Of a DNA stretch of 64,000 nucleotides, positions 6,350 through 62,883 are shown in pieces. Below the pieces are notes generated by a model, which was not told the origin of the DNA, did not search any database, and saw only the letters and a list, made by a program, of their open reading frames with translations. The position numbers were made by a program, and so were the translations under genes. Origin of the DNA: Cheiracanthium punctorium (lineage: Eukaryota; Arthropoda; Arachnida; Araneae; Cheiracanthiidae); contig JAWZYV010013281.1 in assembly GCA_038373885.1 (NCBI GenBank), positions 206,865 through 270,864 of the forward strand, written 5' to 3'. Each line of letters starts with the position of its first letter. The stretch's first letter is position 1.

Positions 6350-7490
6350 AGAGTAACTAAGTAATATCATTTCATTCGCTTTAGTCGTAATTATGTGATG
6401 CGCGAACGAATATTTACGCATATTGAAATAATTTTCGCAAAATCTCAAAATTTAATCAACATTTTTGAAAAATTTGAAGCCTAGAATTTAAGTTGAGTGA
6501 CAACCTATGATGTCACCCAAATTCGTTTCATTCCCTGCAGTCTTTATTTCGTGATGCTGGAACAAATTTTCAGCATTTTAAAACGATTTTCGAAAAATCT
6601 CAAAATGTAAGCAAAATATTTTTAAAATTCAACGCCTATAAATTAAGATTAGCAACTACCTATAATATCACTCAATTTAGTATCATTCGTATTAGTCGTT
6701 ATTAAGTGATGTTTGAAGAAATATAAACGTATTTTGAGAGAATTTTCACAAAATCTCAAAATCTAATAAAAATGTTTAAAAAATTGGACTCCTATAGTTT
6801 ATGTTGAGCAACCATCTATCGTGTGACCAAATTTCATATCATTCGCTTTAGTCGTTATTACGTAATACGGGACCAAAGATTCACTCAGTTTTAAACGATT
6901 TTCACAAAATCTCGAAATCTGATGGATTTTTTTTAATTAGATGCTTATAGTTTAAGGTGAGTGACCACCTATCATTTCACCAAATATCATTTTTTCACCT
7001 TTGCAGTTATTACGTGATGTGCGAACACAAATTTACGCAGTTTGAAATGATTTTCGCAAAATTTCAAAATCTAATAAAGATTTTTTTTAATTCGACGCCT
7101 ATGTTTTAATTTGAGTGACCACCTATCATGACACCCAATTTCATATCATTCGCTTCTGTCGTTTTTACGTGATGCTTGAACACAAATTTATGCAGTTTGA
7201 AAGGATTTTCGCAAAATCTCAAAATCCAATCAGGATTTTTTAAAAATTGGACGCCTATGTTTTAAGTTAATTGACCACCTATCATGACACCCAATTTCAT
7301 ATCATTCGCTTCAGTTGTTTTTACGTGATGCTTGAACACAAATTTACGCAGTTTGAAAGGATTTTCGCAAAATCTCAAAATCCAATCAAGATTTTTTAAA
7401 AATTGGACGCCTATGTTTTAAGTTGAGTGACCACCTATCATGACACCCAATTTCATATCATTCGCTTCAGTCGTTTTTACGTGATGCTTA
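6350..7490. repeat. Tandem array, ~153 bp unit
   Basis: Seven or more head-to-tail units share the core GACCACCTATCATGACACCC followed by a TTTCATATCATTCGCTT block, then ACGTGATGC and TTTTCGCAAAATCTCAAAAT. Core occurrences start near 6500, 6655, 6808, 6960, 7115, 7268 and 7425. The right-hand units are most alike, so expansion is most recent there. The array is embedded in a longer repeat whose left edge reads AACTAGCTGAAATACCCGTC (6186) and whose right edge ends in TTTATATAGATAGATA (~7685). Confidence 0.85.
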
Positions 7491-7500
7491 AACAAAAAAA

Positions 7501-13511: not shown

Positions 13512-13965
13512 CTATACTCGGGGCAAAGCTGACCTGATTGTGGAAGTAAAGCTATAGACCGTGTGATTCCGCCGCTCTCAAATAGTACTTTCCGTTTGGC
13601 GAAGTTAATACAGAACTAATACATTTTTTTATCTATTAAATGCTAAAAATAAAGTGTCTGCTATAAAATAATTGCATATTTGTGTTTCTTCAATGCAGTA
13701 ATTAGAAGGATTAAGAAATTAAGTCAGTAATCAGATGTAACGCCATCCCAGACGCTTGACCAATTATCATTGGTCAAGCGTCACCTCTTTTGTGCTGGTG
13801 GGAATTGTGTAGTGCGGATTTGCCTTGTGATTGGGTTGCTTTGTGATGTTGACAGCCAGCTAATTGGAAGGAGAAACGAGATTCGGAGCGATACACCCGG
13901 TAAGTAGTGAAATGGTCCCTCTAGCCATCCCCACCACTATCATGTTAGGTTTGCCCCGAGTATAG
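13512..13965. mobile_element. MITE, CTATACTCGGGG family, copy 1
   Basis: The left end CTATACTCGGGGCAAAGCT and right end GGTTTGCCCCGAGTATAG are inverted repeats. TA at each end suggests a TA target. A 28 bp near-perfect palindrome CGCTTGACCAATTATCATTG(...) lies inside (13751-13778). Copies 2 and 3 are in the opposite orientation. Confidence 0.85.
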
Positions 13966-15476: not shown

Positions 15477-15931
15477 CTATACTCGGAGCAAACCTAACCT
15501 GATAGTGGAGGGGATGGCTAGAGGGACCATTTCACTACTTACTGCGTGTATCGCTCCGAATCTCGTTTCTCCTTCCAATTAGCTGGCTGTCAACATCACA
15601 TAGCAACCCAATCACAAGGCAAATCCGCACTACTCAATTTCCACCAGCACAAAAGAGGTGACGCTTGACCAATGATAATTGGTCAAGCGTCTGGGATGGC
15701 GTTACATCTGATTACTGACTTAGTTTCTTAATCATTCTAATTACTGCATTGAAGAAACACAAATATGCAATTATTTTATAGCAGACACTTTATTTTTAGC
15801 ATTTAATAGATAAAATAAATGTATTAGTTCTGTATTAACTTCGCCAAACGGAAAGAACTATTTGAGAGCGCCGGACTCACACGGTCCATAGCTTTACCTC
15901 CACTATCAGGTTAGCTTTGCCCCGAGTATAG
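15477..15931. mobile_element. MITE, CTATACTCGGGG family, copy 2
   Basis: Inverted ends as in 13512-13965 but the whole element is in the opposite orientation. The internal 28 bp palindrome is at about 15665-15692. It directly abuts a TGACGTCA-type MITE. Confidence 0.85.
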
Positions 15932-40860: not shown

Positions 40861-41374
40861 TTACTCCAAGCACAAGAGGAAATCTTCCACTGTCTTCGGC
40901 AGACCGAAGTTGCCGACAACATTTGGCAACAGTTCTGTGCGGCGTACGATCTTTCTCACTGCGCACCGAGCCAAATGACGAAGACTCCTTGGTTGGACTA
41001 CCTCTGTTACGCAGTTCAGCTTTCTCTCGGATAATTTTTGGTCTAAATCTTCGAAGGAGTAGTTCAGAAGGTGCAATTGCTGGAGAAATGTGCAAATGTG
41101 TTGCAGTACAGGTTTAAGTTCCTCGATGCACACTACGGGGTCGGGGATCACTTGGAAAAAAGCTTCAAGGCAATACTCGTAATCAGGTGCCTTTTCAACA
41201 TCTCGCACACACACCGTCACAACATTAATCACGAAAAGTACTAAGCAGATTCTCTTTCGGATGCTGTGCTCAATACCCTTAAATCTTCCTGCTATCGAAG
41301 AAAATAATGAGTCCAAGATGTTTAGAGTACAAGCGTAGCAGGTACCTGCATAACCTTCGTTGCAAACTTGAGAC
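40861..41374 (-). CDS. Terminal exon of a SOCS-box protein (ASB-like)
   Basis: On the minus strand a strong acceptor (CTTTTTTTTTTCTTCCACCAG) precedes an open segment of 170 codons ending in TAA. The last ~43 residues match the SOCS box. PRSLRHLARCAVRKIV fits the elongin-BC box pattern [ST]LxxL-C-xxx-V, with Ala in the usual Cys position, and FGLPKTVEDFLL fits the Cullin-5-box end. This layout, with an unfolded-looking region before a C-terminal SOCS box, is that of ankyrin-and-SOCS-box (ASB) or related substrate receptors of Cullin-5 ubiquitin ligases. Ankyrin repeats would be encoded in upstream exons, which were not identified at higher coordinates in this window. The intron holds MITEs at 41444 and 41611. 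The acceptor phase leaves one base completing the first codon. Family assignment is by eye; the exact subfamily is unknown. Confidence 0.75.
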
Positions 41375-41443
41375 CTGGTGGAAGAAAAAAAAAGAATGCA
41401 CTACTTATTATAAATAATTTGTTATCTATCAGTGGCGTTTACG

Positions 41444-45545: not shown

Positions 45546-45551
45546 TATATT
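45546..45551. other. Target site duplication (left)
   Basis: TATATT, identical to 59773-59778, directly outside the palindromic element. Confidence 0.8.
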
Positions 45552-45581
45552 AGTAGTGGTAAAAGGACAGTTCACCCCAGG

Positions 45582-45595
45582 GGCAGCCATGTTAA
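45582..45595 (-). promoter_or_regulatory. YY1/Pho-like motif near left terminus
   Basis: The minus strand reads TTAACATGGCTGCC, close to the AAnATGGCnGCC consensus of YY1/Pleiohomeotic. The same site sits at 59730-59743 near the right terminus. A motif match only. Confidence 0.3.
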
Positions 45596-46090
45596 TTGTG
45601 GGCAACTGTATAACTGCTTTCCCTGGGTTGAGCGGGGAAGGGGGGCGTGGTCGGACCGGATGTGGGGAGAGGATGTTCGAAGGGTTGATAAGAATTTTTT
45701 TCCTTTTTTTCAGATAAGGGGACTTGTAATTTTTTTCAGATTGTGACATATTTTTCAAATAAGGGGACTTGGAAAAATTTTCAGATTTGAACGCGCAACC
45801 TACAAAAGAATTCATAGGCTAATGATTGTTGTCCATTAGGCCGAGAATCCTTCAGGTATAAAATTGTAGGTGTATTGTGTTATATTTTAGTTTTGAAAAT
45901 GAATTGGGACTTTGATTAATTTTTCGAAGTTTATTTTTTTATTTATTTAGTTTTCTTTACCATTTAGTAATAGAACCAATGCAAATTGAATAAATGTTGC
46001 TTAATACATACTTCTAATGTTTAGCTAATTTTTGTATACCGTTTAAGATTATAGCATATATTTAATAAGTAACAGTTTACTAGAATATTA

Positions 46091-46805
46091 AAGTAGGGTT
46101 TAGGATACCCATACATTTTCTACAAATTTCTTCTACTGTTAGGGAAGTGAGAAAATTATACCATAGAACGATTTTAGTACGTATAGTTTTTACAAATAAT
46201 GATTTAGATAGTGTATGAACTTTTTTATCTAAACATTTTTTTTTTTCTTAAGAGATTTTTACCCAACTTAATATTTTTTTTTTTAATCAAGAGTTAATTA
46301 ATTTTAATTTTTTTTTAACCATGAGTTTTAATTTTAAGTTAAATAATTTTACAACAAATATTTTTTACCAAGTTTTAATTTTACAACAAATATTTTTTAA
46401 CCAAGTTTTAATTTTAAGTTACTAATTAATTTTACAACAAATATATTTTACCAAGTTTTAATTTTACAACAAATATTTTTTAACCAAGTTTTAATTTTAA
46501 GTTACTAATTAATTTTACAACAAATATTTTTTACCAAGTTTTAATTTTAAGTTATATAATTTTACAACAAATATTTTTTTAATCAAATGTTTTTAATTTA
46601 TCAAGAAAAAATTTTAATCAAGTGTTTTTAATTTATCAAGAAAAAAAAATTTAATCAAGAGTTTTAATTTTTGGTATATCCTATTTTTGTTAAGTAGCCG
46701 TTTAACATTAAAGTAAGGTTTAGGATACCCATACATTTTCTACAAATTTAATCTACGGTTAGGGAAGTAAGAAAATTATACCATAGAAAGATTTTACAAA
46801 TAATG
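46091..46805. repeat. Direct repeats around an AT-rich tandem block
   Basis: A ~105 bp segment with TTTAGGATACCCATACATTT occurs at 46091-46197 and again at 46702-46805. Between them lies a tandem array of TTTTACAACAAATATTTTTT plus CCAAGTTTTAATTTTAAGTT units (about 46320-46590). The right arm has the equivalent at 58600-59200 with a different unit count, which explains much of the arm length difference. Confidence 0.8.
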
Positions 46806-46888
46806 ATATAGTCTTATTTTCTATTGCGAGAAAAATCACTTTAGCCATATATCCCCCCAAAACTCAAGTTTTCGTATATTAAATGCAT

Positions 46889-46985
46889 GAATACGCGTTA
46901 GATCCCCTTAGAAAGTCCTCCTACCAAGGCACCCCTCATCCTAAGCAGATACCCCCGCGTGCAGGTTTGCCTTAAAACACAAACA
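46889..46985 (+). repeat. SINE body fragment inside left arm (family B)
   Basis: TACGCGTTAGATCCCCTTAG, TCCTACCAAGGCACCCCTCATC and GCAGGTTTGCCTTAAAACAC, then an A-rich tail. Its mirror copy is at 58412-58505, so it was present before the arms were duplicated. Confidence 0.65.
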
Positions 46986-47472
46986 AACAAAGTATTTATC
47001 TAAACATTTTTTCTTACCCACACATTTTTGATAAATCTTAGGCAGCGATTATACTAGTTTATATTTTCTATAGATCAATTAGAGAAAAAATTGCATTTTT
47101 AGTAATCCTACAAAACATTTTTACTGTATATCCCAAGTAGAGTAACTTGACTTATAGAATTTCAACACGATACGAGTTAGATTGTTTATGTGCAACACTC
47201 ATTTCAGATTGACTATGAAAGCATAATTTTATACATGCATTAATATTTTTAGAGGTATGCACTTAACCTATTTTATAGAAAGGTGAGCATAACTAGCACA
47301 AACTTTTAGACTAGATAGTACTATTGTTAGAAAGTTGAACTATTGGAAATAAAAATTGAAGATCCGTTTTAGCACAGTTGTATACTGCATGTACATAAAA
47401 TATCTTTCAATACTTAGATAGTTTAAATCACAAATCATTACTTAAACTAAAAAATACAAGGTTTTTACTTAC

Positions 47473-47633
47473 GTGAAGAGACATCTGGCGAAATCTTCTA
47501 GTCTCTGGACACAGTACCAACATCCATACGGCTAGCAAGTACGAAAAATAGAGTAATGATTTAAAATACATTAACTCTAAGTTCCGTCCCAGCTGACCAA
47601 TATCAAGACATTACTTCTTTTTGTCTTCATATG
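47473..47633 (-). ncRNA. Candidate outward-transcribed exon (left arm)
   Basis: On the minus strand CCTATTTCAG precedes a 161 bp segment ending in CTCTTCAC followed by GTAAGT. The right-arm counterpart is 57756-57909. Both splice sites are identical in the two arms, although about 50 bp of the segment between is not. An upstream donor (CAGG|GTAAGTG) lies at 48111. No conserved reading frame exists, so an untranslated spliced RNA or 5' leader is the best guess. No RNA evidence is available. Confidence 0.3.
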
Positions 47634-48204
47634 CTGAAATAGGTATATTATTTTGACACTAAAAACAAAACACATTTGAAGATATTAAACGCTTTAAAAG
47701 TAGTTTTTTTTTCTTATAACAATTTACCAGATTCACAATACTATTTTATGTAGGATAAAATTAGTTAGCAAGCGAAAATTTAATCTTAGTTAGAATTTAC
47801 TGAAATATAGATACCATGCATGCCTTATTTTCTATTAGGAGAAAGCCCTCAAACCCCAGTTTTTGTACACAAACTGCATAAAGTACTTCTACCGATAATG
47901 CTATTAATATTAATTACACTGGATTACCAACTTAAAATTTCGCAAAACACCAAAATACAGAAAAACATGCATTAACAAAACAAAACAAAAAAATCACACT
48001 TAAAAGTACAACACATCAAAAGTGCAACTATAAGAACCACATAATTATTTTCAATTAGAATTACGGTATCAACTTATATGTAACTAAAATAATAGAAAAT
48101 ATTACACTTACCCTGTACTTGTACACGCGAGAGGCGAAAATAATAAAAATATTTAAATAATTCGCAAATAATACAGCACACAAATCGCACAGCACAAAAA
48201 CAAC

Positions 48205-49489
48205 CACGTGCATATCCCTAGTACAGCTGATAAGAAATTGAGAGAGATAAGAAAGTGCCTTGACGCTCTACAGAGCCGGTACAATAAGAGTTGGCCAGTT
48301 TACCGATAAGATAAAACCAGGGAAGGTACTAGGGGAATACCGAATTGTGGGGACACGTGTTTCATTCTGCGTTCAAAAATGGGGACTTATGGATTAAGAT
48401 GTTTACTACTTAAAAACATGATTTAATTTTTACAAACGCATTGGAACTTTGTATAGGATATCTATTGAACACGTATTAAATACATTATGATTATTCTTCT
48501 GATCGACATTATATCCTAAATTAAAATATCAAAGTTAAGCTACAACGATTAATATATTTTACGTAGTTTAGGAAAATAATGAATCATTAAATTAATTTCC
48601 GTGAAACAATTAGCAAAGATCATTGTACTAAAACAAATTATTTTTGTTAAGTTTTGATAAATAACAGTAATAAATTATAGGCATTGCAGATGAATGAATA
48701 TTCACGTATAAAATAGGTATTAAAATTATTGTTTAAAACAATTTTTAGAATAATAAACTAAAATTTTTATTTAATAAAGTCATAAACTAAAATTATTAAT
48801 GAAAACTTGTTAATAAATTAAACATATCAAAATTTTTACACTCAGTTTTTTTATATACTTAAATTTTACATAGACATCCTTTTAATAAATGCATAAACTA
48901 AACTTATTGTTTAAAACAATTTTTTACAATAATAAACTAAAATTTTTATTTAATAAATTCATAAACTAAAACAATTTTTACAATAATAAACTAAAATTTT
49001 TTTAATAAAGTCATAAACTGAAATTATTAATGAAAACCTGTTAATAAACTAAACTGATTACTCTAAAAGATAGCTAATCACAACATATATCAGAAAAAAT
49101 ATAAGCAATTATAATACCTGAAAAATACCGGACAACACTCTTGTTGCATGCGGACAAAACATCGGTCAGCTCGGCTAAAGAATTCTTAGGTATCCGTTGC
49201 AGGAGAACTTACCTACGCCCAACCTACAAACTCTACAAATTTAACGGCAACTGATTTTCTCTTATCAGGTATCACAGATCAGATAAGAGATAAGGAAGTG
49301 ACATGCGCAGAAGACACGTGATAGTGACGTGTGCAAATCTGTGTTGATTGAATATCCGGTAGGTTTCTGGCAGGATGTACTATTTGCAATTAGGGGCAAC
49401 TCTTTGTAACAGGCTAAGACAAGTTAGATGATGCAATATCTACAGGGTTGAGAAAGTTTTAAGGTAGAGGGCGCTTGGGTAATCACGTG
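48205..49489. promoter_or_regulatory. GATA and CACGTG site cluster, left arm
   Basis: CACGTG occurs at 48205, 48354, 49315 and 49484. GATAAG (either strand) occurs at 48229, 48246, 48305, 49261, 49282 and 49289. All ten have counterparts in the right arm (55946-57202). The cluster lies between the ALKBH-like gene and the outward exon, where a divergent promoter would be expected. GATA factors and bHLH factors are the known binders of such motifs; use here is inferred. Confidence 0.45.
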
Positions 49490-49625
49490 ATTTTTTTTTT
49501 AAAGAACCAGTAAAGACATTTTAGTTAGATAAAATGGCCAGGTGTGTGTTGCGAGACTCCCTTTGCACTGTGTGCGCCTATACTTAAGACGTGTGTTTTA
49601 ATTGATTTTTCGCCGAGTTTAAAAA

Positions 49626-51146
49626 ATGTGTTTGCTTGAATACACTCCCGAGTTTTATACTCAAAGTGATGCTGATGTGTTGCTGCAAGAAATAATACAA
49701 TTGCCTTTAGATGTAAAGCCTCTGCAAAGTATTGAAAAGAAAATTTCCCCCGAGTTTTATACTGAAAGTGATGTTGATGTGCTACAGCAAGAATTGTTTC
49801 AGTTACCCCTGCAAAGTAGTGAAAAGAAAATTTCCTCGACCCGTAAAGTAATTACTTTTGCTGATGAAGGAATCAATTACAGTTTACCTGGAGCAACAGT
49901 CACTGTTTACTCTTGGATACCCATTTTGCAAAAAATACGTGAAGATCTACAGAAAGTGACAAATTATGAATTTAATATGGTACAAGTGAACTTTGGCTCT
50001 GAAGAACAACCTAAAATTGAAGACGGTAACTACGAAGATTTTAATCTAGACCTATCATCAGGTGTATGCATTCTAAGTTTTGGATCTAAACGAACTTTGG
50101 ATTTTAAACCAGCGAACTGTGAAACCACTACCATTAAATTAGAACATGGTTCAATGTGTAAGATATATCCCCCAACCAACAAACTTTTAACGCATGGTAT
50201 TCCTTCTGAACCTTATGTGACAGATCCGCACATTAACCTAACATTTGCCAAAATGTACATTTATGAGCCTTCCCCGAAAACGGCAAAGTTGGACAATTGG
50301 ACGGACGATCTTTACCATAGCTTATATGCTTCTGTAAATAGTACATGGCACTTGGAAAGACTTATCTACGTTTCACTTCACGATGAAAGAACTGACTTGA
50401 AGATCCATATTAGACAATTTATTCAGAATACCCAATTAGACTATATACCAACCGGTCAGGGAGTCGTGATGAACCCTTCCACATGGATCGAATTTATTGT
50501 AAAACTATTAGATTTTAATATAGGTCATAGCAATAGCTCTTTTATTTGTAATAATCAATTATCTGTATTTAATGACGATGGAAAATGTATCTTACAACAA
50601 ATTTACAAAACCGGAGATTCATTTACGTTAAATCCAATTTCCTTAACACTTTTAAATGATCAAGTATTAAAACTTTGTAAAATGAGAAATGAAATATTGG
50701 AGTGTATTCTAAAAACGCTATATACGACGACCCTGCCTCATTTAATTTTAAAATTAAAGCCGCAAAAATGTAACCGTGAACCCCATTGTAATTATGATGG
50801 GGCGAAACAACAATTAATGGATATGGTACATCAGGAAATTTTTAAAAACATAGGCCGGGTTCAGGATCATTCTTCGCAAAGGATACATGCCTGTTCGAAT
50901 AGAACACATGTTGATGAGCGAGAGGGTCTCATAAGTAGTAAAGCATGGTTTACGGTTGACATGCCATATATTGCAAGAGAGATATGCAAGAACAAATGTA
51001 CTTGTCATTATGACGGAGAATTTTTTTCAAACATTTTCATTGAAGACTATATGAAGTATCTTCAAAATGAGCTATTTAATACATTTTTTCAACCGTTTTC
51101 ATATTTTGCTAATTCCAAGGATGACAAAACATGTGTAATTATGTGA
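49626..51146 (+). CDS. ALKBH2/3-like pseudo-dioxygenase with CaaX end (left copy)
   Basis: A 506-aa protein. Residues 5-212 follow the AlkB family layout of DNA-repair 2OG/Fe(II) dioxygenases, closest by eye to ALKBH2/3: EYTPEFYTQSDADVL (N-terminal helix region, repeated at 42-57), then TFADEGINYS, SWIPILQKIRE, YEFNMVQVNFG, SFGSKRTLDF, LEHGSMCKI, PPTNKLLTHGIP and INLTF. The metal-binding HxD is lost (G134 and Y136 at those positions by my alignment), the distal His is kept (H190), and both 2OG-binding Arg positions read H202 and A208. It is therefore probably catalytically dead. Residues 213-506 are unrecognised and include a Cys cluster (C454, C458, C460, H461). The last four residues are CVIM, a farnesylation motif. 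The start ATG is in the same context as the right copy but lacks nine codons just after it. Confidence 0.8.
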   Translation: MCLLEYTPEFYTQSDADVLLQEIIQLPLDVKPLQSIEKKISPEFYTESDVDVLQQELFQLPLQSSEKKISSTRKVITFADEGINYSLPGATVTVYSWIPILQKIREDLQKVTNYEFNMVQVNFGSEEQPKIEDGNYEDFNLDLSSGVCILSFGSKRTLDFKPANCETTTIKLEHGSMCKIYPPTNKLLTHGIPSEPYVTDPHINLTFAKMYIYEPSPKTAKLDNWTDDLYHSLYASVNSTWHLERLIYVSLHDERTDLKIHIRQFIQNTQLDYIPTGQGVVMNPSTWIEFIVKLLDFNIGHSNSSFICNNQLSVFNDDGKCILQQIYKTGDSFTLNPISLTLLNDQVLKLCKMRNEILECILKTLYTTTLPHLILKLKPQKCNREPHCNYDGAKQQLMDMVHQEIFKNIGRVQDHSSQRIHACSNRTHVDEREGLISSKAWFTVDMPYIAREICKNKCTCHYDGEFFSNIFIEDYMKYLQNELFNTFFQPFSYFANSKDDKTCVIM

Positions 51147-51343
51147 TGTTATTGGTGTATAACTAGTATTGCAATTGTAAAAAATATATTAAAACCATTG
51201 TGATTATGTAGAAAAGGTACGCTTGCTTCTACAACAGTAAGATTTTACTCACTTGTGCATGCTTAGTTATAGAATACTCATTGAAAAGTTATTATTTTCT
51301 TAATTGTGTAAATAGTTTGTGTAATTTAAAATATATTTTTGTA

Positions 51344-51349
51344 AATAAA
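51344..51349 (+). terminator. Polyadenylation signal, left ALKBH-like gene
   Basis: AATAAA about 200 bases after the stop; the mirror copy is at 54060-54065 on the other strand. Confidence 0.55.
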
Positions 51350-51359
51350 TAAGTTTATA

Positions 51360-54050
51360 TATGCAAAAATTCTGTGTTTTCTTTGTGTGTGTTGATTACT
51401 TGCAAAATAAAAATCTATAAAATTTTACTGCAGCAAAAAGTGGTAAAGGTAGACATGTTTTAAGATTCTAGTGTTATACTTATCTTTTTTATACACTACA
51501 AGGTACAAAGTTACAAATTTAGCAAAATTTATTGAAGCATGTATTACGGATCAGGAATCTAACTACAAATAAAATGTTCTGATTAAAATCATAAACTTAA
51601 GTGTGATAGGTAAAACTGCGTTTCCTGAGAATTCACAACATTACTATTTTTTTTATAAAAAGAACTTAGCTAAAAAAGTTTGTCTGCATAATTTTATAAC
51701 TTAATCGATTTTACAGGTTTTTCAAAAAAAGTTCAGTGAGATAAAGAAACTTAGTATTTTTAAATAAAGATTTTTTGAGGTGTTCTTTAATGTAAAGATC
51801 TTACCACATTTTACTTGAAGTAACAGAATATTTTAAATCAGACACTATGTTTTTAAAACATTAGAGTATTAACTTAGCATATTTTTGTAATTTTTATTAA
51901 GTAATGGGCTTGAATAGTTTTATAATAAATATCAACTAAGTGCACATGTTACACATTTTACTGATTAAGATGGTTATGCTTACAAATTTTAAATAAATAT
52001 GCTCTTACTTTTATACATGTTACTTGTTCAAACTAAGTATACTTTTGATTTGTATACGTTTATGAGTTCTCATAAGTTATGAAATTATTTCTCGAAAGGA
52101 ACTTAGCTATGAGAACTTTGTAAATTTTGTAGAAGTAGTATGCTTAACATGTTTTTGATGAAATGCGGTATAGAAATAATCAGTTATTTTCGCATAGATG
52201 TATAAACTTATCTTTATGTAAACCATAACTAATTAAAAGTAATATAATTTATGTCTATACAAAGTGAGGGACTTAGACTATTTTTCAGAATTATCAAGTA
52301 AAGGATTTTACAAAATACTTAGTAAACTGCATTAATAGATTGTAAGTTGTATTTTTTTTTCTTTTAGAAGTTTTGCACATTGGTATATTTTATGTTCTGA
52401 TAAGTCGTTGAATATGTTCTTGAAATAAACTAACATATCTGTACTTTGAAAATTTTATTGAAGTGTTGAACTTTGGTATTTTTAGAATGTTACGAACTTG
52501 ATACATTTTTTCTGAAGTGCTAGATATGTGAAATTGGCTTTTTAGAAACATTGAATTATTCAACTTAGTACATTTCAGTTACTCTTTCAAGATAACGGAC
52601 TTAGAATTTTTTACAAATAGCAAGCTCGTAACTTGCTAAACGTGCTTCTTGCAAATATTTTTAAATACCGTTCTTAAAAATTATCAAAGTTGTAACTACT
52701 AAAAAGAAATAAACAAATTAAAATATAATAAATTAAGTATTTAAAAATATTTGCAAGAAGCACGTTTAGCAAGTTACTAGCTTGCTATTTGTAAAAAATT
52801 CTAAGTCCGTTATCTTGAAAGAGTAACTGAAATGTACTAAGTTGAATAATTCAATGTTTCTAAAAAGCCAATTTCACATATCTAGCACTTCAGAAAAAAT
52901 GTATCAAGTTCGTAACATTCTAAAAATACCAAAGTTCAACACTTCAATAAAATTTTCAAAGTACAGATATGTTAGTTTATTTCAAGAACATATTCAACGA
53001 CTTATCAGAACATAAAATATACCAATATGCAAAACTTCTAAAAGAAAAAAAAATACAACTTACAATCTATTAATGCAGTTTACTAAGTATTTTGTAAAAT
53101 CCTTTACTTGATAATTCTGAAAAATAGTCTAAGTCCCTCACTTTGTATAGACATAAATTATATTACTTTTAATTAGTTATGGTTTACATAAAGATAAGTT
53201 TATACATCTATGCGAAAATAACATTATTTCTATACCGCATTTCATCAAAAACATGTTAAGCATACTACTTCTACAAAATTTACAAAGTTCTAATACCTAA
53301 GTTCCTTTCGAGAAATAATTTCATAACTTATGAGAACTCATAAACGTATACAAATCAAAAGTATACTTAGTTTGAACAAGTAACATGTATAAAAGTAAGA
53401 TCATATTTATTTAAAATTTGTAAGCATAACCATCTTAATCAGTAAAATGTGTAACATGTGCACTTAGTTGATATTTCTTATAAAAATATTCAAGCCCATT
53501 ACTTAATAAAAATTACAAAAATATGCTAAGTTAATACTCTAATGTTTTAAAAACATAGTGTCTGATTTAAAATATTCTGTTACTTCAAGTAAAATGTGGT
53601 AAGATCTTTACATTAAAGAACACCTCAAAAAATCTTTATTTAAAAATACTAAGTTTCTTTATCTCACTTAACTTTTTTTGAAAAACCTGTAAAATCGAAT
53701 AAGTTATAAAATTATGCAGACAAACTTTTTTAGCTAAGTTCATTTTATAAAAAATTAGTAATGTTGTGAATTCTCAGGAAACGCAGTTTTACCTATCACA
53801 CTTAAGTTTATGATTTTAATCAGAACATTTTATTTCTATGTAGTAGATTAATGTTTCCATAGTACATGCTTCAATAAATTTTGTTAAATTTGTAACTTTT
53901 TACCTTGTAGTGTATAAAAAAGATAAGTATAACACACTAGAATCTTAAAACATGTCTACCTTTACCACTTTTTGCTGCAGTAAAATTTTATAGATTTTTA
54001 TTTTGCAAGTAATCAACACACATAAAGAAAACACAGAAAAGTTTTCGTAT
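51360..54050. other. AT-rich inner arms, no gene
   Basis: The 3' flanks of both genes and the palindrome centre. No ORF or known repeat was recognised. Sequence symmetry continues to the spacer. Confidence 0.7.
52669..52736. other. Central spacer of the palindrome
   Basis: 68 bp of A/T-rich unique sequence between the last paired bases (left ...TTTTTAAATAC and right GTATTTAAAAA...). It could be the loop of a fold-back intermediate. Confidence 0.85.
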
Positions 54051-54059
54051 TTAGACTTA

Positions 54060-54065
54060 TTTATT
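54060..54065 (-). terminator. Polyadenylation signal, right ALKBH-like gene
   Basis: AATAAA on the minus strand about 200 bases downstream of the stop codon. Confidence 0.55.
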
Positions 54066-54263
54066 TACAAAAATATATTTTAAATTACACAAACTATTTA
54101 CACAATTAAGAAAATAATAACTTTTCAATGAGTATTCTATAACTAAGCATGCACAAGTGAGTAAAATCTTACTGTTGTAGAAGCAAGCATGCCTTTTCTA
54201 TATAATCACAATGGTTTTAATATATTTTTTTACAATTGCAATACTAGTTATACACCAACAACA

Positions 54264-55811
54264 TCACATAATTACACATGTTTTGTCATCCTTGGAATTA
54301 GCAAAATATGAAAACGGTTGAAAAAATGTATTAAATAGCTCATTTTGAAGATACTTCATATAGTCTTCAATGAAAATGTTTGAAAAAAATTCTCCGTCAT
54401 AATGACAAGTACATTTGTTCTTGCATATCTCTCTTGCAATATATGGCATGTCAACCGTAAACCATGCTTTACTACTTATAAGACCCTCTCGCTCATCAAC
54501 ATGTGTTCTATTCGAACAGGCATGTATCCTTTGCGAAGAATGATCCTTAACCCGGCCTATGTTTTTAAAAATTTCCTGATGTACTATATCCATTAATTGT
54601 TGTTTCGCCTCATCATAATTACAATGGGGTTCACGGTTACATTTTTGCGGCTTTAATTTTAAAATTAAATGAGGCAGGGTCGTCGTATATAGCGTTTTTA
54701 GAATACACTCCAATATTTCATTTCTCATTTTACAAAGTTTTAATACTTGATCATTTAAAAGTGTTAAGGAAATTGGATTTAACGTAAATGAATCTCCGGT
54801 TTTGTAAATTTGTTGTAAGATACATTTTCCATCGTCATTAAATACAGATAATTGATTATTACAAATAAAAGAGCTATTGCTATGACCTATATTAAAATCT
54901 AATAGTTTTACAATAAATTCGATCCATGTGGAAGGGTTCATCACGACTCCCTGACCGGTTGGTATATAGTCTAATTGGGTATTCTGAATAAATTGTCTAA
55001 TATGGATCTTCAAGTCAGTTCTTTCATCGTGAAGTGAAACGTAGATAAGTCTTTCCAAGTGCCATGTACTATTTACAGAAGCATATAAGCTATGGTAAAG
55101 ATCGTCCGTCCAATTGTCCAACTTTGCCCTTTTCGGGGAAGGCTCATAAATGTACATTTTGGCAAATGTTAGGTTAATGTGCGGGTCTGTCACATAAGGT
55201 TCAGAAGGAATACCATGCGTTAAAAGTTTGTTGGTTGGGGGATATATCTTACACATTGAACCATGTTCTAATTTAATGGTAGTGGTTTCACAGTTCGCTG
55301 GTTTAAAATCCAAAGTTCGTTTAGATCCAAAACTTAGAATGCATACACCTGATGATAGGTCTAGATTAAAATCTTCGTAGTTACCGTCTTCAATTTTAGG
55401 TTGTTCTTCAGAGCCAAAGTTCACTTGTACCATATTAAATTCATAATTTGTCACTTTCTGTAGATCTTCACGTATTTTTTGCAAAATGGGTATCCAAGAG
55501 TAAACAGTGACTGTTGCTCCAGGTAAACTGTAATTGATTCCTTCATCAGCAAAAGTAATTACTTTACGGGTCGAGGAAATTTTCTTTTCACTACTTTGCA
55601 GGGGTAACTGAAACAATTCTTGCTGTAGCACATCAACATCACTTTCAGTATAAAACTCGGGGGAAATTTTCTTTTCAATACTTTGCAGAGGCTTTACATC
55701 TAAAGGCAATTGTATTATTTCTTGCAGCAACACATCCGCATCACTTTGAGTATAAAACTCGGGAGTGTATTCAATGTTAAAGTTATTTTCGATCGATTCA
55801 AGCAAAGACAT
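54264..55811 (-). CDS. ALKBH2/3-like pseudo-dioxygenase with CaaX end (right copy)
   Basis: A 515-aa mirror copy of the left-arm protein. The ATG at 55811 (AAAAATGTCTTTG) is preferred over upstream in-frame TTG at 55835. It starts MSLLESIENNFNIEYTPEF; the nine residues SIENNFNIE are absent from the left copy. Elsewhere only four residues differ: R for T, E for G, I for M and K for Q at left-copy positions 219, 392, 400 and 413. The HxD and Arg losses, the retained distal His, the N-terminal duplication and the CVIM terminus are identical. Both reading frames have stayed open over 1.5 kb, so the copies are either young or maintained. It converges with the left copy, the two stops being ~3.1 kb apart. 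Confidence 0.8.
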   Translation of the reverse strand: MSLLESIENNFNIEYTPEFYTQSDADVLLQEIIQLPLDVKPLQSIEKKISPEFYTESDVDVLQQELFQLPLQSSEKKISSTRKVITFADEGINYSLPGATVTVYSWIPILQKIREDLQKVTNYEFNMVQVNFGSEEQPKIEDGNYEDFNLDLSSGVCILSFGSKRTLDFKPANCETTTIKLEHGSMCKIYPPTNKLLTHGIPSEPYVTDPHINLTFAKMYIYEPSPKRAKLDNWTDDLYHSLYASVNSTWHLERLIYVSLHDERTDLKIHIRQFIQNTQLDYIPTGQGVVMNPSTWIEFIVKLLDFNIGHSNSSFICNNQLSVFNDDGKCILQQIYKTGDSFTLNPISLTLLNDQVLKLCKMRNEILECILKTLYTTTLPHLILKLKPQKCNREPHCNYDEAKQQLMDIVHQEIFKNIGRVKDHSSQRIHACSNRTHVDEREGLISSKAWFTVDMPYIAREICKNKCTCHYDGEFFSNIFIEDYMKYLQNELFNTFFQPFSYFANSKDDKTCVIM

Positions 55812-55945
55812 TTTTGAAACTCGGCGAAAAATCAATTAAAACACACGTCTTAAGTATAGGCGCACACAGTGCAAAGGGAGTCTCGCAACACACACCTGGC
55901 CACTTTATCTAACTAAAATGTCTTTACTGGTTCTTTAAAAAAAAT

Positions 55946-57202
55946 CACGTGATTACCCAAGCGCCCTCTACCTTAAAACTTCTCAACCCTGTAGATATTG
56001 CATCATCTAACTTGTCTTAGCCTGTTACAGAGAGTTGCCACTCAATGTACATCCTGCCAACGAACCTAGCGGATATTAAATCAACACAGATTTGCACACG
56101 TCACTATCACGTGTCTTCTGCGCATGTCACTTCCTTATCTCTTATCTGATCTGTGATACCTGATAAGAGAAAACTCAGTTGCCGTTAAATTTGTAGAGTT
56201 TGTAGGTTGGGCGTAGGTAAGTTCTCCTGCAACGGATACCTAAGAATTCTTTAGCCGAGCAGACAGATGTTTTGTCCGCATGCAACAAGAGTGTTGTCCG
56301 GTATTTTTCAGGTATTATAATTGCTTATATTTTTTCTGATATATGTTGTGATTAGCTATCTTTTAGAGTAATCAGTTTAGTTTATTAACAGGTTTTCATT
56401 AATAATTTCAGTTTATGACTTTATTAAATAAAATTTTAGTTTATTATTGTAAAAATTGTTTTAGTTTATGAATTTATAATAAAATTTGTTATATGTAAAA
56501 ATTGTTTAAACATAAGTTTAGTTAGTAAAAGGATGTCTATGTAAAATTAAGTCTATAAAAAAACTGAGTGTAAAAATTTTGATATGTTTAATTTATTAAC
56601 AAGTTTTCATTAATAATTTTAGTTTATGACTTTATTAAATAAAAATTTTAGTTTATTATTCTAAAAATTGTTTTAAACAATAATTTTAATACCTATTTTA
56701 TACGTGAATACTCATTCATCTGCAATGCCTATAATTTATTACTGTTATTTATCAAAACTTAACAAAAATAATTTGCTTTAGTACAATGATCTTTGCTAAT
56801 TGTTTCACAGAAATTAATTTAATGATTCATTATTTTCCTAAACTACGTAAAATATATTAATCGTTGTAGCTTAACTTTGATATTTTAATTTAGGATATAA
56901 TGTCGATCAGAAGAATAATCATAATGTATTTAATACGTGTTCAATAGATATCCTTTACAAAGTTCCAATGCGTTTGTAAAAATTAGATCATGTTTTTAAG
57001 TAGTAAACATCTTAATCCATAAGTCCCCATTTTTGAACGTAGAATGAAACACGTGTCCCCACAATTCGGTATTCCCCTAGCACCCTCCCTGGTTTTATCT
57101 TATCGGCAAACTGGCCAACTCTTATTGTACCGGCTCTGTAGAGCCTCAAGGCACTTTCTTATCTCTAAATTTCTTATCAGCTGTACTAGGGATATGCACG
57201 TG
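55946..57202. promoter_or_regulatory. GATA and CACGTG site cluster, right arm
   Basis: CACGTG at 55946, 56108, 57050 and 57197; six GATAAG/CTTATC sites near 56140-56170 and 57100-57180. Mirror image of the left-arm cluster. Confidence 0.45.
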
Positions 57203-57755
57203 GATGTTTACTTCATTCTGTGGTATATTTGTGAATTATTAAGTATTTTTATTATTTTCGCCTCTCGCGTGTACAAGTACAGGGTAAGTGTAATATTTTC
57301 TATTATTTTAGTTACATATAAGTTGATACCGTAATTCTAATTGAAAATAATTATGTGGTTCTTATAGTTGCACTTTTGATGTGTTGTACTTTTAAGTGTG
57401 ATTTTTTTTTTGTTAATGCATGTTTTTCTGTATTTTGGTGTTTTGCAAAATTTTAAGTGGGTAATCCAGTGTAATTAATAGCAATAGGCATTATCGGTAG
57501 AAGTACTTTATGCAGTTTGTATACAAAAACTGGGGTTTGAGGGCTTTCTCCTAATAGAAAATAAGGCATGCATGGTATCTATATTTCAGTAAATTCTAAT
57601 TAAGATTAAATTTTCGCTTGCTAACTAATTTTATCCTACATAAAATAGTATTGTGAATCTGGTAAATTGTTATAAGAAAAAAAATTACTTTTAAAGCGTT
57701 TAATATCTTCAAATGTGTTTTGTTTTTAGTGTCAAAATATTATGCCTATTTTCAG

Positions 57756-57909
57756 CATATGAGGATAAAAATTAATGAAAATGTGCTAGTTGGACCGGGA
57801 ATTAGGGATAATGTATTTTAAATCATTACTCTATTTTCCGGTCTTGCTAGCCGTATAGATGTTGGTACTTTGTCCAGAGACTAGAAGATTTAGCACGATG
57901 TCCCTTCAC
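57756..57909 (+). ncRNA. Candidate outward-transcribed exon (right arm)
   Basis: CTATTTTCAG before and GTAAGT after a 154 bp segment. An upstream donor (CAGG|GTAAGTG) is at 57284. Exon interior differs from the left arm over ~50 bp while both splice sites match. Function unknown. Confidence 0.3.
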
Positions 57910-58411
57910 GTAAGTAAAAACCTTGTATTTTTTAGTTTAAGTAATGATTTGCGATTTAAACTATCTAAGTATTGAAAGATATTTATGTACATGCAGTATA
58001 AAACTGTGCTAAAACGGATCTTCAATTTTTATTTCCAATAGTTCAACTTTCTAACAATAGTACTATCTAGTCTAAAAGTTTGTGCTAGTTATGCTCACCT
58101 TTCTATAAAATATGCTAAGTGCATCCATAAAAGACCTCTAAAAAGGTTGATTCATGTATAAAATTATGCTTTCATAGTCAAACTGAAATGAGTGTCGCAC
58201 ATAAACAATCTAACTCGTATCGTATTGAAATTCTATAAATCAAGTTACTCTACTTGTGATATACAGTAAGAATATTTTGTAGGATTACTAAAAATGTAAT
58301 TTTTTCTCTAATTGATCTATAGAAAATATAAACTAGTATAATCGCTGCCTAAGATTTATCAAAAATGTGTGGGTAAGAAAAAATGTTTAGATAAATACTT
58401 TGTTTGTTTGT

Positions 58412-58505
58412 GTTTTAAGGCAAACCTGCACGCGGGGGTATCTGCTTAGGATGAGGGGTGCCTTGGTAGGAGGACTTTCTAAGGGGATCTAACGCGTATT
58501 CATGC
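58412..58505 (-). repeat. SINE body fragment inside right arm (family B)
   Basis: Mirror copy of 46889-46985. Confidence 0.65.
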
Positions 58506-59501
58506 ATTTCGTATACAAAAACTTGAGTTTTGGGGGATATATGGCTAAAGTGGTTTTCTCGCAATAGAATATAAGACTATATCCAAATCATTATTTGTAA
58601 AATCTTTCTATGGTATAATTTTCTCACTTGCCTAACAGTAGATTAAATTTGTAGAAAATGTATGGGTATCCTAAACCTTACTTTAATGTTAAACGGCTAC
58701 TTAACAAAAATACGGATATACAAAAAATTAAAACTCTTGATTAATTTTTTTTTCTTGATAAATTAAAAACATTTGATTAAAAAAAATTTGTTGTAAAATT
58801 AATTATTTACTTCAAATTAAAACTTGGTAAAAAAAATATTTGTTGTAAAATTAATTATTAACTTAAAATTAAAACTTGGTAAAAAAATATTGTGTAAAAT
58901 TATTGTAAAAATATTTGTTGTAAAATTATTTAACTTAAAATTAAAACTTGGTTAAAAATAAATTAAAATTAACTCTTGATTAAAAAAATATTTGTTGTAA
59001 AATTATTTAACTTAAAATTAAAACTGTTGGTTAAAAATCTCTTAAGAAAAAAAAAATGTTTAGATAAAAAAGTTCATACACTATCTAAATCATTATTTGT
59101 AAAAAATATAGGTACTAAAATCGTTCTATGGTATAATTTTCTCACTTCCCTAACAGTACAAGAAATTTGTAGAAAATGTATGGGTATCCTAAACCCTACT
59201 TTAATATTCTAGTAAACTGTTACTTATTAAATATATGCTATAATCAGTATACAAAAATTAGCTAAACATTAGAAGTATGTATTAAGCAACATTTATTCAA
59301 TTTGCATTGGTTCTATTACTAAATGGTAAAGAAAACTAAATAAATAAAAAAATAAACTTCGAAAAATTAATCAAAGTCCCAATTCATTTTCAAAACTAAA
59401 ATATAACACAATACACCTACAATTTTATACCTGAAGGATTCTCGGCCTAATGGACAACAATCATTAGCCTATGAATTCTTTTGTAGGTTGCGCGTTCAAA
59501 T

Positions 59502-59620
59502 TTGAAAATTTTTTCCAAGTCCCCTTATTTGAAAAATATGTCACAATCTGAAAAAATTACAAGTCCCTTATTGAAAAATATTAATCTGAAAAAATACAAG
59601 TCCCCTTATCTGAAAAAAAG
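59502..59620 (+). repeat. Sub-terminal CAAGTCCCCTTAT repeats
   Basis: Three degenerate copies of CAAGTCCCCTTATCTGAAAAA close to the right terminus; the left end has two full and one degenerate copy at 45710-45785. The small frames covering them encode only the repeat (KSPYLKK) and are unlikely to be genes. Confidence 0.6.
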
Positions 59621-59772
59621 GAAAAAAATTCTTATCAACCCTTCGAACATTCCTCTCCCCACATCCGGTCCGACCACGCCCCCCTTCCCCGCTCAACCCA
59701 GGGAAAGCAGTTATACAGTTGCCCACAATTAACATGGCTGCCCCTGGGGTGAACTGTCCTTTTACCACTACT

Positions 59773-59778
59773 TATATT
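59773..59778. other. Target site duplication (right)
   Basis: TATATT, the partner of 45546-45551. Confidence 0.8.
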
Positions 59779-62060: not shown

Positions 62061-62067
62061 AGATTCG

Positions 62068-62550
62068 CTATACTCGGGCAAAACTAACCTGATAGTGGAG
62101 GGGGAAGGCTAGAGGGGCAATTTCACTACTCACCAAGTGTATTGCTCCGACACTCGTTTCTCCTTCCAATTATCTGGCTGTCAACATCATAAAGCAACCC
62201 AATCAGAAGGCAAATCCGTACTACTAGCACGCCAGCACAAAAGAAGTGACGCTGGACCAATGATAATTGGTCAAGCGTCTGGGATGGCGTTACATCTGAT
62301 TTCTGACTTAATTTCTTAAGTCAGAAATCTTACAATTTAATCCTTCAGAATTAAATCTTCAGATTACTGCATTCAAGTAACACAAATATGCAATTATTTT
62401 ATAGCAAACACTTTATTTTAGCGCTTAATAGATGAAAAATGTGTAATTTCTGTAATAACCTGGGCAAACGAAAAGAAATTTTTGAGAGCGGCAGGCTCAC
62501 ACGGTTTTAGTTTTACCTCAACTATCAGGTTAGCTTTGCCCCGAGTATAG
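62068..62550. mobile_element. MITE, CTATACTCGGGG family, copy 3
   Basis: CTATACTCGGGCAAAACTAA at the left, AGCTTTGCCCCGAGTATAG at the right, with the internal GATAATTGGTCAAGCGTCTG palindrome half at ~62261. It carries a small extra duplication (ACTTAATTTCTTAAGT, TTTAATCCTTCAGAATTAAA). Confidence 0.85.
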
Positions 62551-62883
62551 TAACTTGTAGAGATACAATTTAAATTTTTTGAGCCAGTGATGTAACTTCA
62601 TTGCTTTAAAAACTGTTCAAATCTTGCATTATATTTCAAAAGAACATAATAAGTTTGGAATGATTCATGAGAAGGTTGTAAAGAAGAAAAAAAGAAAGAA
62701 AAGAAACGCTAAAAAGCAAATAATATATCGACTGTATGTTGATTACTAAATGTATCGTGAATGTGGTATACAAACAACATAAACCTATCCGATTTTGAGA
62801 AAATTTATTGTTTCAGTTTTTCGGTAGACATATTTTAAAAGTGTGCCACATCGGCAAGCTCATAATCAGGAACTTCACCAGTA

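Follow-up and report, generated by a model that had tools for sequence, protein, structure and literature searches.

A stretch of 64,000 nucleotides from the genome of the spider Cheiracanthium punctorium (assembly GCA_038373885.1, contig JAWZYV010013281.1, positions 206,865 to 270,864, forward strand), referred to here as the window, contains at positions 45552–59772 an element made up, end to end, of an inverted, self-complementary dimer of a unit of about 7.1 kb. The 14,221-bp inverted repeat is a near-perfect palindrome without Ns, and its arms are 97.4% identical at aligned bases (178 of 6,869 mismatched when the 100 aligned bases adjoining the central spacer are excluded), the insertions and deletions between them lying mostly within AT-rich tandem arrays (Table 1). 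An inverted repeat of 7 kb at this level of identity is not a product of chance. The first 100 bases are identical at the two ends, which have AGTAGT termini. A sequence-only reading of this DNA had placed the element at exactly these coordinates, with arms of about 7.1 kb around a 68-bp spacer, and the analysis bears this out; the AG...CT ends and perfect TATATT duplication that it described are likewise present, the duplication being exactly 6 bp on both sides.

Table 1. Features of the palindromic element and its borders (window coordinates)
Feature	Position	Strand
Left target-site duplication, TATATT	45546..45551	.
Left arm of palindrome	45552..52668	+
Terminal ~240 bp, beginning AGTAGTGG; many genomic occurrences	45552..45791	+
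AT-rich tandem repeats, left arm	46276..46670	.	
Left-arm open reading frame, 507 aa: ALKBH2-fold (motif lost), PC4/PUR-like part, helical tail	49623..51146	+	
Central spacer, 68 bp; would-be hairpin loop	52669..52736	.	
Right arm of palindrome	52737..59772	-	
Right-arm open reading frame, 523 aa: left-arm protein plus 16 extra N-terminal residues in open frame	54264..55835	-	
AT-rich tandem repeats, right arm	58778..59038	.	
Right target-site duplication, TATATT	59773..59778	.	

Searches of the window's own assembly (2.53 Gb in 15,171 contigs, labelled below by C-numbers) revealed the same architecture at further loci, where both the flanking sequence and the duplication are different. The terminal 301 bp gave 1,923 first-look candidates, of which 40 were scored and 44 matches listed; the sequence-only reading had proposed such a search with the terminal 300 bp or so, and further copies are indeed present in number. 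The element protein gave 3,495 candidates, and the 82 that were scored are 96–100% identical to it; 76 of the 82 are free of stops, a proportion skewed upwards because the scored open reading frames (ORFs) were the top scorers of the 3,495. Eighteen ORF pairs were found among the 82, every one of them convergent, with 2.1–3.2 kb between the ORFs (3,135–3,193 bp in 12 of the 18).

Seven paired elements and six single-ended stretches were retrieved for comparison, and ten elements were examined (the window copy, C13478, C8471, C1461, C775, C3336, C3435, C7349, C1905, and C2947, the last chosen through its ORFs and measured from its ends, with its interior unread). Six of these are palindromes without large loss and four have lost arm sequence. 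C13478, C8471, C1461, and C775 are collinear with the window arm apart from small gaps and fold back at the same centre. In C3336 and C3435, one arm is complete and the other is missing its inner part, with one breakpoint close to the spacer; the overlap between aligned pieces at the join is 12 and 5 bases, respectively. C7349 is 7.6 kb long with a terminal repeat of about 0.66 kb, and C1905 is 12.1 kb long with one arm rearranged. Exact 6-bp duplications flank nine of the ten elements and are different in each (TATATT, TTCAAA, TACAAT, GCCGTG, GAGAAG, GAGAAT, AACCCT, and CCCATT, with ACTGTA in C2947), and both these duplications and terminal inverted repeats (TIRs) with 5'-AG ends are features by which Polintons, or Mavericks, are recognized. 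An apparent additional terminal AGT in C2947 was rejected, as it is the duplication read in reverse. A degraded and diverged relative of the family lies at C14455:293700-303617 (77–82% DNA identity; 43% protein identity over residues 343–506). A search for relatives in IMG/VR gave 121 pattern matches, of which none was confirmed, and the terminal pattern had no match there; an Rfam scan gave no match at the gathering score.

Each arm encodes one recognised protein, comprising an ALKBH2 fold that lacks the metal-binding motif, a tandem PC4/PUR-like module, and a helical tail. A structure model built from nine rows was usable (predicted local distance difference test score, pLDDT, 67.3) and one from five rows was not (31.7); the fold comparison covers mainly residues 9–232. 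The PC4/PUR-like single-stranded DNA-binding fold is represented by a repeated beta-beta-beta-beta-alpha unit. Active AlkB dioxygenases carry HxD...H iron ligands and a C-terminal arginine. In the palindrome protein, HxD and the arginine are both replaced, and both are kept in an AlkB protein of the C11358 Polinton and in an AlkB-PC4 fusion on C6745, such that the module looks dead in the palindrome and, by motif, active in C11358 and C6745. The pooled ratio of non-synonymous to synonymous polymorphism (pN/pS) is 0.233 for 13 open ORFs of at least 400 aa (two cut by the fetch edge, broken copies excluded), and among the 15 copies with a whole ORF in the retrieved pieces, 11 are open and four broken. 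The lowest identity between copies is 96.1% in the ORF, 93.5% in inner non-coding sequence, and 91.1% in the outer middle. The protein is thus under purifying selection and, together with the conservation of the ORF, this suggests that it matters for the spread of the element. At E<=0.01, a Pfam scan of 38 of the 50 ORF pieces of the element and the two long ORFs (39 of the 50 with the long right-arm ORF, which was scanned separately) returned 2OG-FeII_Oxy_2 as the sole match, with none to PolB or rve-type integrase, nor, among the 38 pieces, to a packaging ATPase; no nuclease or transposase domain was recognised in scans of the element's proteins. Phage records gave two matches only, limited to the AlkB part at 23%.

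The same genome contains 34 matches to protein-primed PolB (PF03175). The Polinton on C1077 is 14,410 bp long, with 543-bp TIRs at 99.4% identity, ends reading AGTAGAGGGG, and the duplication ATCGCC; it encodes PolB, an integrase with rve and chromo domains, and an A32-like ATPase, and carries an AlkB gene directly inside its left TIR and a PC4 gene directly inside its right TIR. An AlkB gene also occupies the left end in C6156, C11358, and C7239, and a PC4 gene lies near one end of C8736. In Polintons of this genome, ALKBH2-like genes were located directly inside one TIR, at L051:5664-6164, L053:606-1085, L054:1856-2437, and L057:508-1020 (coordinates of the retrieved pieces); the L054 copy alone was seen to match ALKBH2 end to end, and the L051 copy is frame-broken. 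On C6745 (L055:148-1587), the full-length AlkB-PC4 fusion of 480 aa is encoded upstream of PolB on the opposite strand, likely inside the same element, and is homologous to the palindrome protein over residues 9–500 (35%, E 2e-93). Among the relatives of this fusion (P0004-P0006) is a protein of the spider Uloborus diversus. At the protein level, the interior of the palindrome has homologues in or beside Polintons; at the DNA level, its matches are short and weak ones to L055, with none to the retrieved C1077 pieces. When the first 24 bases of seven palindromes were compared with those of three Polintons, C8736 was found to share 16–20 of them, and its best match, 15 of 19 at positions 6–24, was unreached in 20,000 column shuffles. 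The Polinton link drawn in the sequence-only reading thus stands as regards the AGTAGT ends, the 6-bp duplications, the homology of the protein to Polinton AlkB and PC4 proteins, and a terminus resembling that of an autonomous Polinton, a resemblance confined to one of the three Polinton termini. The four compared ends of two Polintons, C11358:444079-458530 and C5913:1168774-1183221, are 100% identical over 421 bp, reflecting either recent activity or haplotypes of one locus.

Taken together, these observations describe a genuine element, present in many copies and palindromic throughout, that looks reliant on Polintons. As no replication or integration gene is recognisable in it, the element probably lives off the Polintons of its own genome, and we favour, at a probability of roughly 0.6, the view that the window element belongs to a multi-copy family of non-autonomous DNA elements that are satellites of these Polintons. 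The sequence-only reading had offered a non-autonomous family as one of its options, which fits the many copies and the lack of a recognised PolB or integrase. On the satellite reading, Polinton integrase and protein-primed polymerase would act on the palindrome in trans; the displaced strand could fold into a hairpin of about 7 kb around the 68-nt loop, recreating the duplex end at which protein priming would start. Adenovirus provides a parallel to the AGTAGT termini in its jumping back on a repeated end triplet. The ALKBH2-fold protein, devoid of its metal motif but with a PC4/PUR module, might bind or handle DNA at the hairpin stage rather than repair alkylation damage.

The family also shows deletions with a breakpoint near the loop, a gene family common to Polintons, and block-wise similarity of the arms. 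Wherever both arms allowed comparison, the two arms of an element are each other's nearest relatives in 21 of the 28 segments compared (terminus 7 of 9, ORF 6 of 7, inner 3 of 5, outer middle 5 of 7), comparisons that are not mutually independent. Mismatches between arms are clustered by both measures in six of seven elements, the exception being C3435, where the longest clean tract was matched by 1,306 of 5,000 shuffles. C8471 has a mismatch-free tract of 3.2 kb between its arms; C775 has a block at about 1.25–2.9 kb with 3–15% mismatch, flanked by near-clean stretches; and in four of five full palindromes the arms have their fewest differences in the inner third. Such homogenisation could be brought about by mismatch repair of the hairpin or by gene conversion between arms. 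Since the differences between arms come in blocks, we discarded the idea that the palindrome is rebuilt anew with every insertion.

Palindromes without large loss measure 14,221, 14,173, 14,373, 14,040, 13,446, and (C2947) 14,885 bp, and four Polintons 14,452 (C11358), 14,448 (C5913), 14,410 (C1077), and about 14,467 bp (C8736, left end estimated), the members of this comparison being our choice. The similarity fits a packaging limit. Family members with losses span 12.1, 10.5, 9.8, and 7.6 kb, and other paired TIR matches of about 5.7, 11.6, 11.8, 11.9, 20, 23, and 35 kb lend the size match no support. The palindrome has no recognised capsid gene, and capsid proteins escape these libraries even in the Polinton C1077, whose 448-aa ORF (perhaps capsid) has no match in PDB or PHROGs. 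We put forward, as a speculation that could easily prove wrong, a satellite replicon with a self-complementary genome that uses Polinton machinery to replicate by way of a 7-kb hairpin and is a dimer because twice the 7.1-kb unit approximates the capacity of a Polinton particle, in which the palindrome would be packaged. Such a replicon would parasitise an animal Polinton in virophage-like fashion, and its AlkB-PC4 protein, taken from such an element, would have been turned into a hairpin-handling or interfering factor.

Several observations weigh against dependence on Polintons or against hairpin replication. Arms are not mutual closest relatives in seven of the 28 segment comparisons, polarity is opposite in C1461, where the inner third is the least alike, and chromosomal gene conversion would account for the blocks with no need of a hairpin. 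The two ends of C7349 differ, deriving from different sublineages, and C1905 has no duplication. The C1077 and C11358 termini share just 10–15 of their first 24 bases with the palindromes, and BLAST of the palindrome DNA against the retrieved C1077 pieces gave no match. The Polintons of this genome are accordingly candidate helpers.

It is conceivable, if unlikely, that the element is instead a self-sufficient, foldback-like DNA transposon with long TIRs, its AlkB-PC4/PUR-type protein serving as transposase or replication initiator and its arms homogenised by ordinary chromosomal gene conversion. The ORF is the sole one recognised and is conserved, as the pN/pS and the higher identity relative to two non-coding segments attest, and the C-terminal part of its protein has no assigned fold. 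No nuclease or transposase domain is recognised, however, the ends and duplication length agree with those seen in Polintons of this genome, and homologues of the protein reside in or beside Polintons with their own PolB and integrase. The sequence-only reading had also suggested that a Polinton-like genome had, in a single event, become a head-to-head dimer through snap-back replication and that this dimer had integrated. The structure agrees with this in being an inverted dimer with AG ends and a 6-bp duplication, and the family may have begun in this way; as an account of the window copy it is contradicted by the family and very improbable, because elements at different sites have the same unit of about 7.15 kb and the same centre, to which the 18 convergent ORF pairs and the lack of a recognised PolB or integrase in the arms may be added. 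Scarcely credible is a false palindrome produced by assembly fold-over, which C1905 (205882-220959) resembles in that its flanks are mutual inverted copies at 99.7% over at least 1.5 kb (perhaps a larger inverted duplication or such a fold-over), since the remaining elements examined have dissimilar flanks and exact duplications, and arms differ by 0.3–2.6% with insertions and deletions.

Elsewhere in the window, a tandem array with a period of about 156 bp extends over 6363–7498, and a repeat of about 455 bp occurs at 13512–13965, 15477–15931, and 62067–62551 (two inverted copies 96% alike, the third 81%). The 79 ORF pieces scanned outside the element gave single matches to mariner-type transposase models, DUF4817, and the SOCS box, the last perhaps in the ORF at 40861–41400 (minus strand).

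Polintons are considered viruses as much as transposons. If the satellite reading is true, a multi-copy Polinton parasite in an animal genome, palindromic over its full length, would be a natural archive of what happens to protein-primed linear DNA as it is copied, folded, and homogenised, one that could be tested from sequence alone through arm homogenisation and breakpoints at the loop. The palindromic element and Polintons also have an AlkB plus PC4/PUR module in common.

Among known systems, self-complementary parvoviral genomes and virophages are working parallels in their self-folding inverted dimer and possible reliance on the enzymes of another element; the palindrome, known from sequence, differs in having integrated copies with 6-bp duplications and no recognised Rep or capsid gene. 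Foldback elements and other long-TIR transposons likewise have very long inverted repeats around a small centre, whereas the palindrome has 6-bp duplications at Polinton-like ends and a gene duplicated in its arms, with homologues in or beside Polintons. Relative to ALKBH2 and PURA/PC4 proteins, the palindrome protein has its HxD and C-terminal arginine replaced and its domains fused in one chain. In the portions of the open-access literature covered (including PMC11071296, PMC6431247, and PMC4028283), palindromic Polintons do not appear, nor do Polintons with an AlkB-PC4 module, an absence that is unproven as subscription papers lie mostly outside this body. Polintons are described there as elements of 15–20 kb encoding pPolB, an RVE integrase, an FtsK-like ATPase, and a cysteine protease (PMC4028283, in part). 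The palindrome resembles them, and adintovirus-like elements, in its AGTAG ends, TIRs, 6-bp duplication, AlkB and PC4 proteins, and total length, but lacks a recognised PolB, integrase, and ATPase and has TIRs that fill the whole element. Closest in kind are non-autonomous Polinton derivatives, which similarly keep the ends and duplication and miss the core genes; such a derivative is a short, internally deleted copy, whereas the palindrome has a fully palindromic body of about 14 kb with a conserved protein gene in each arm.

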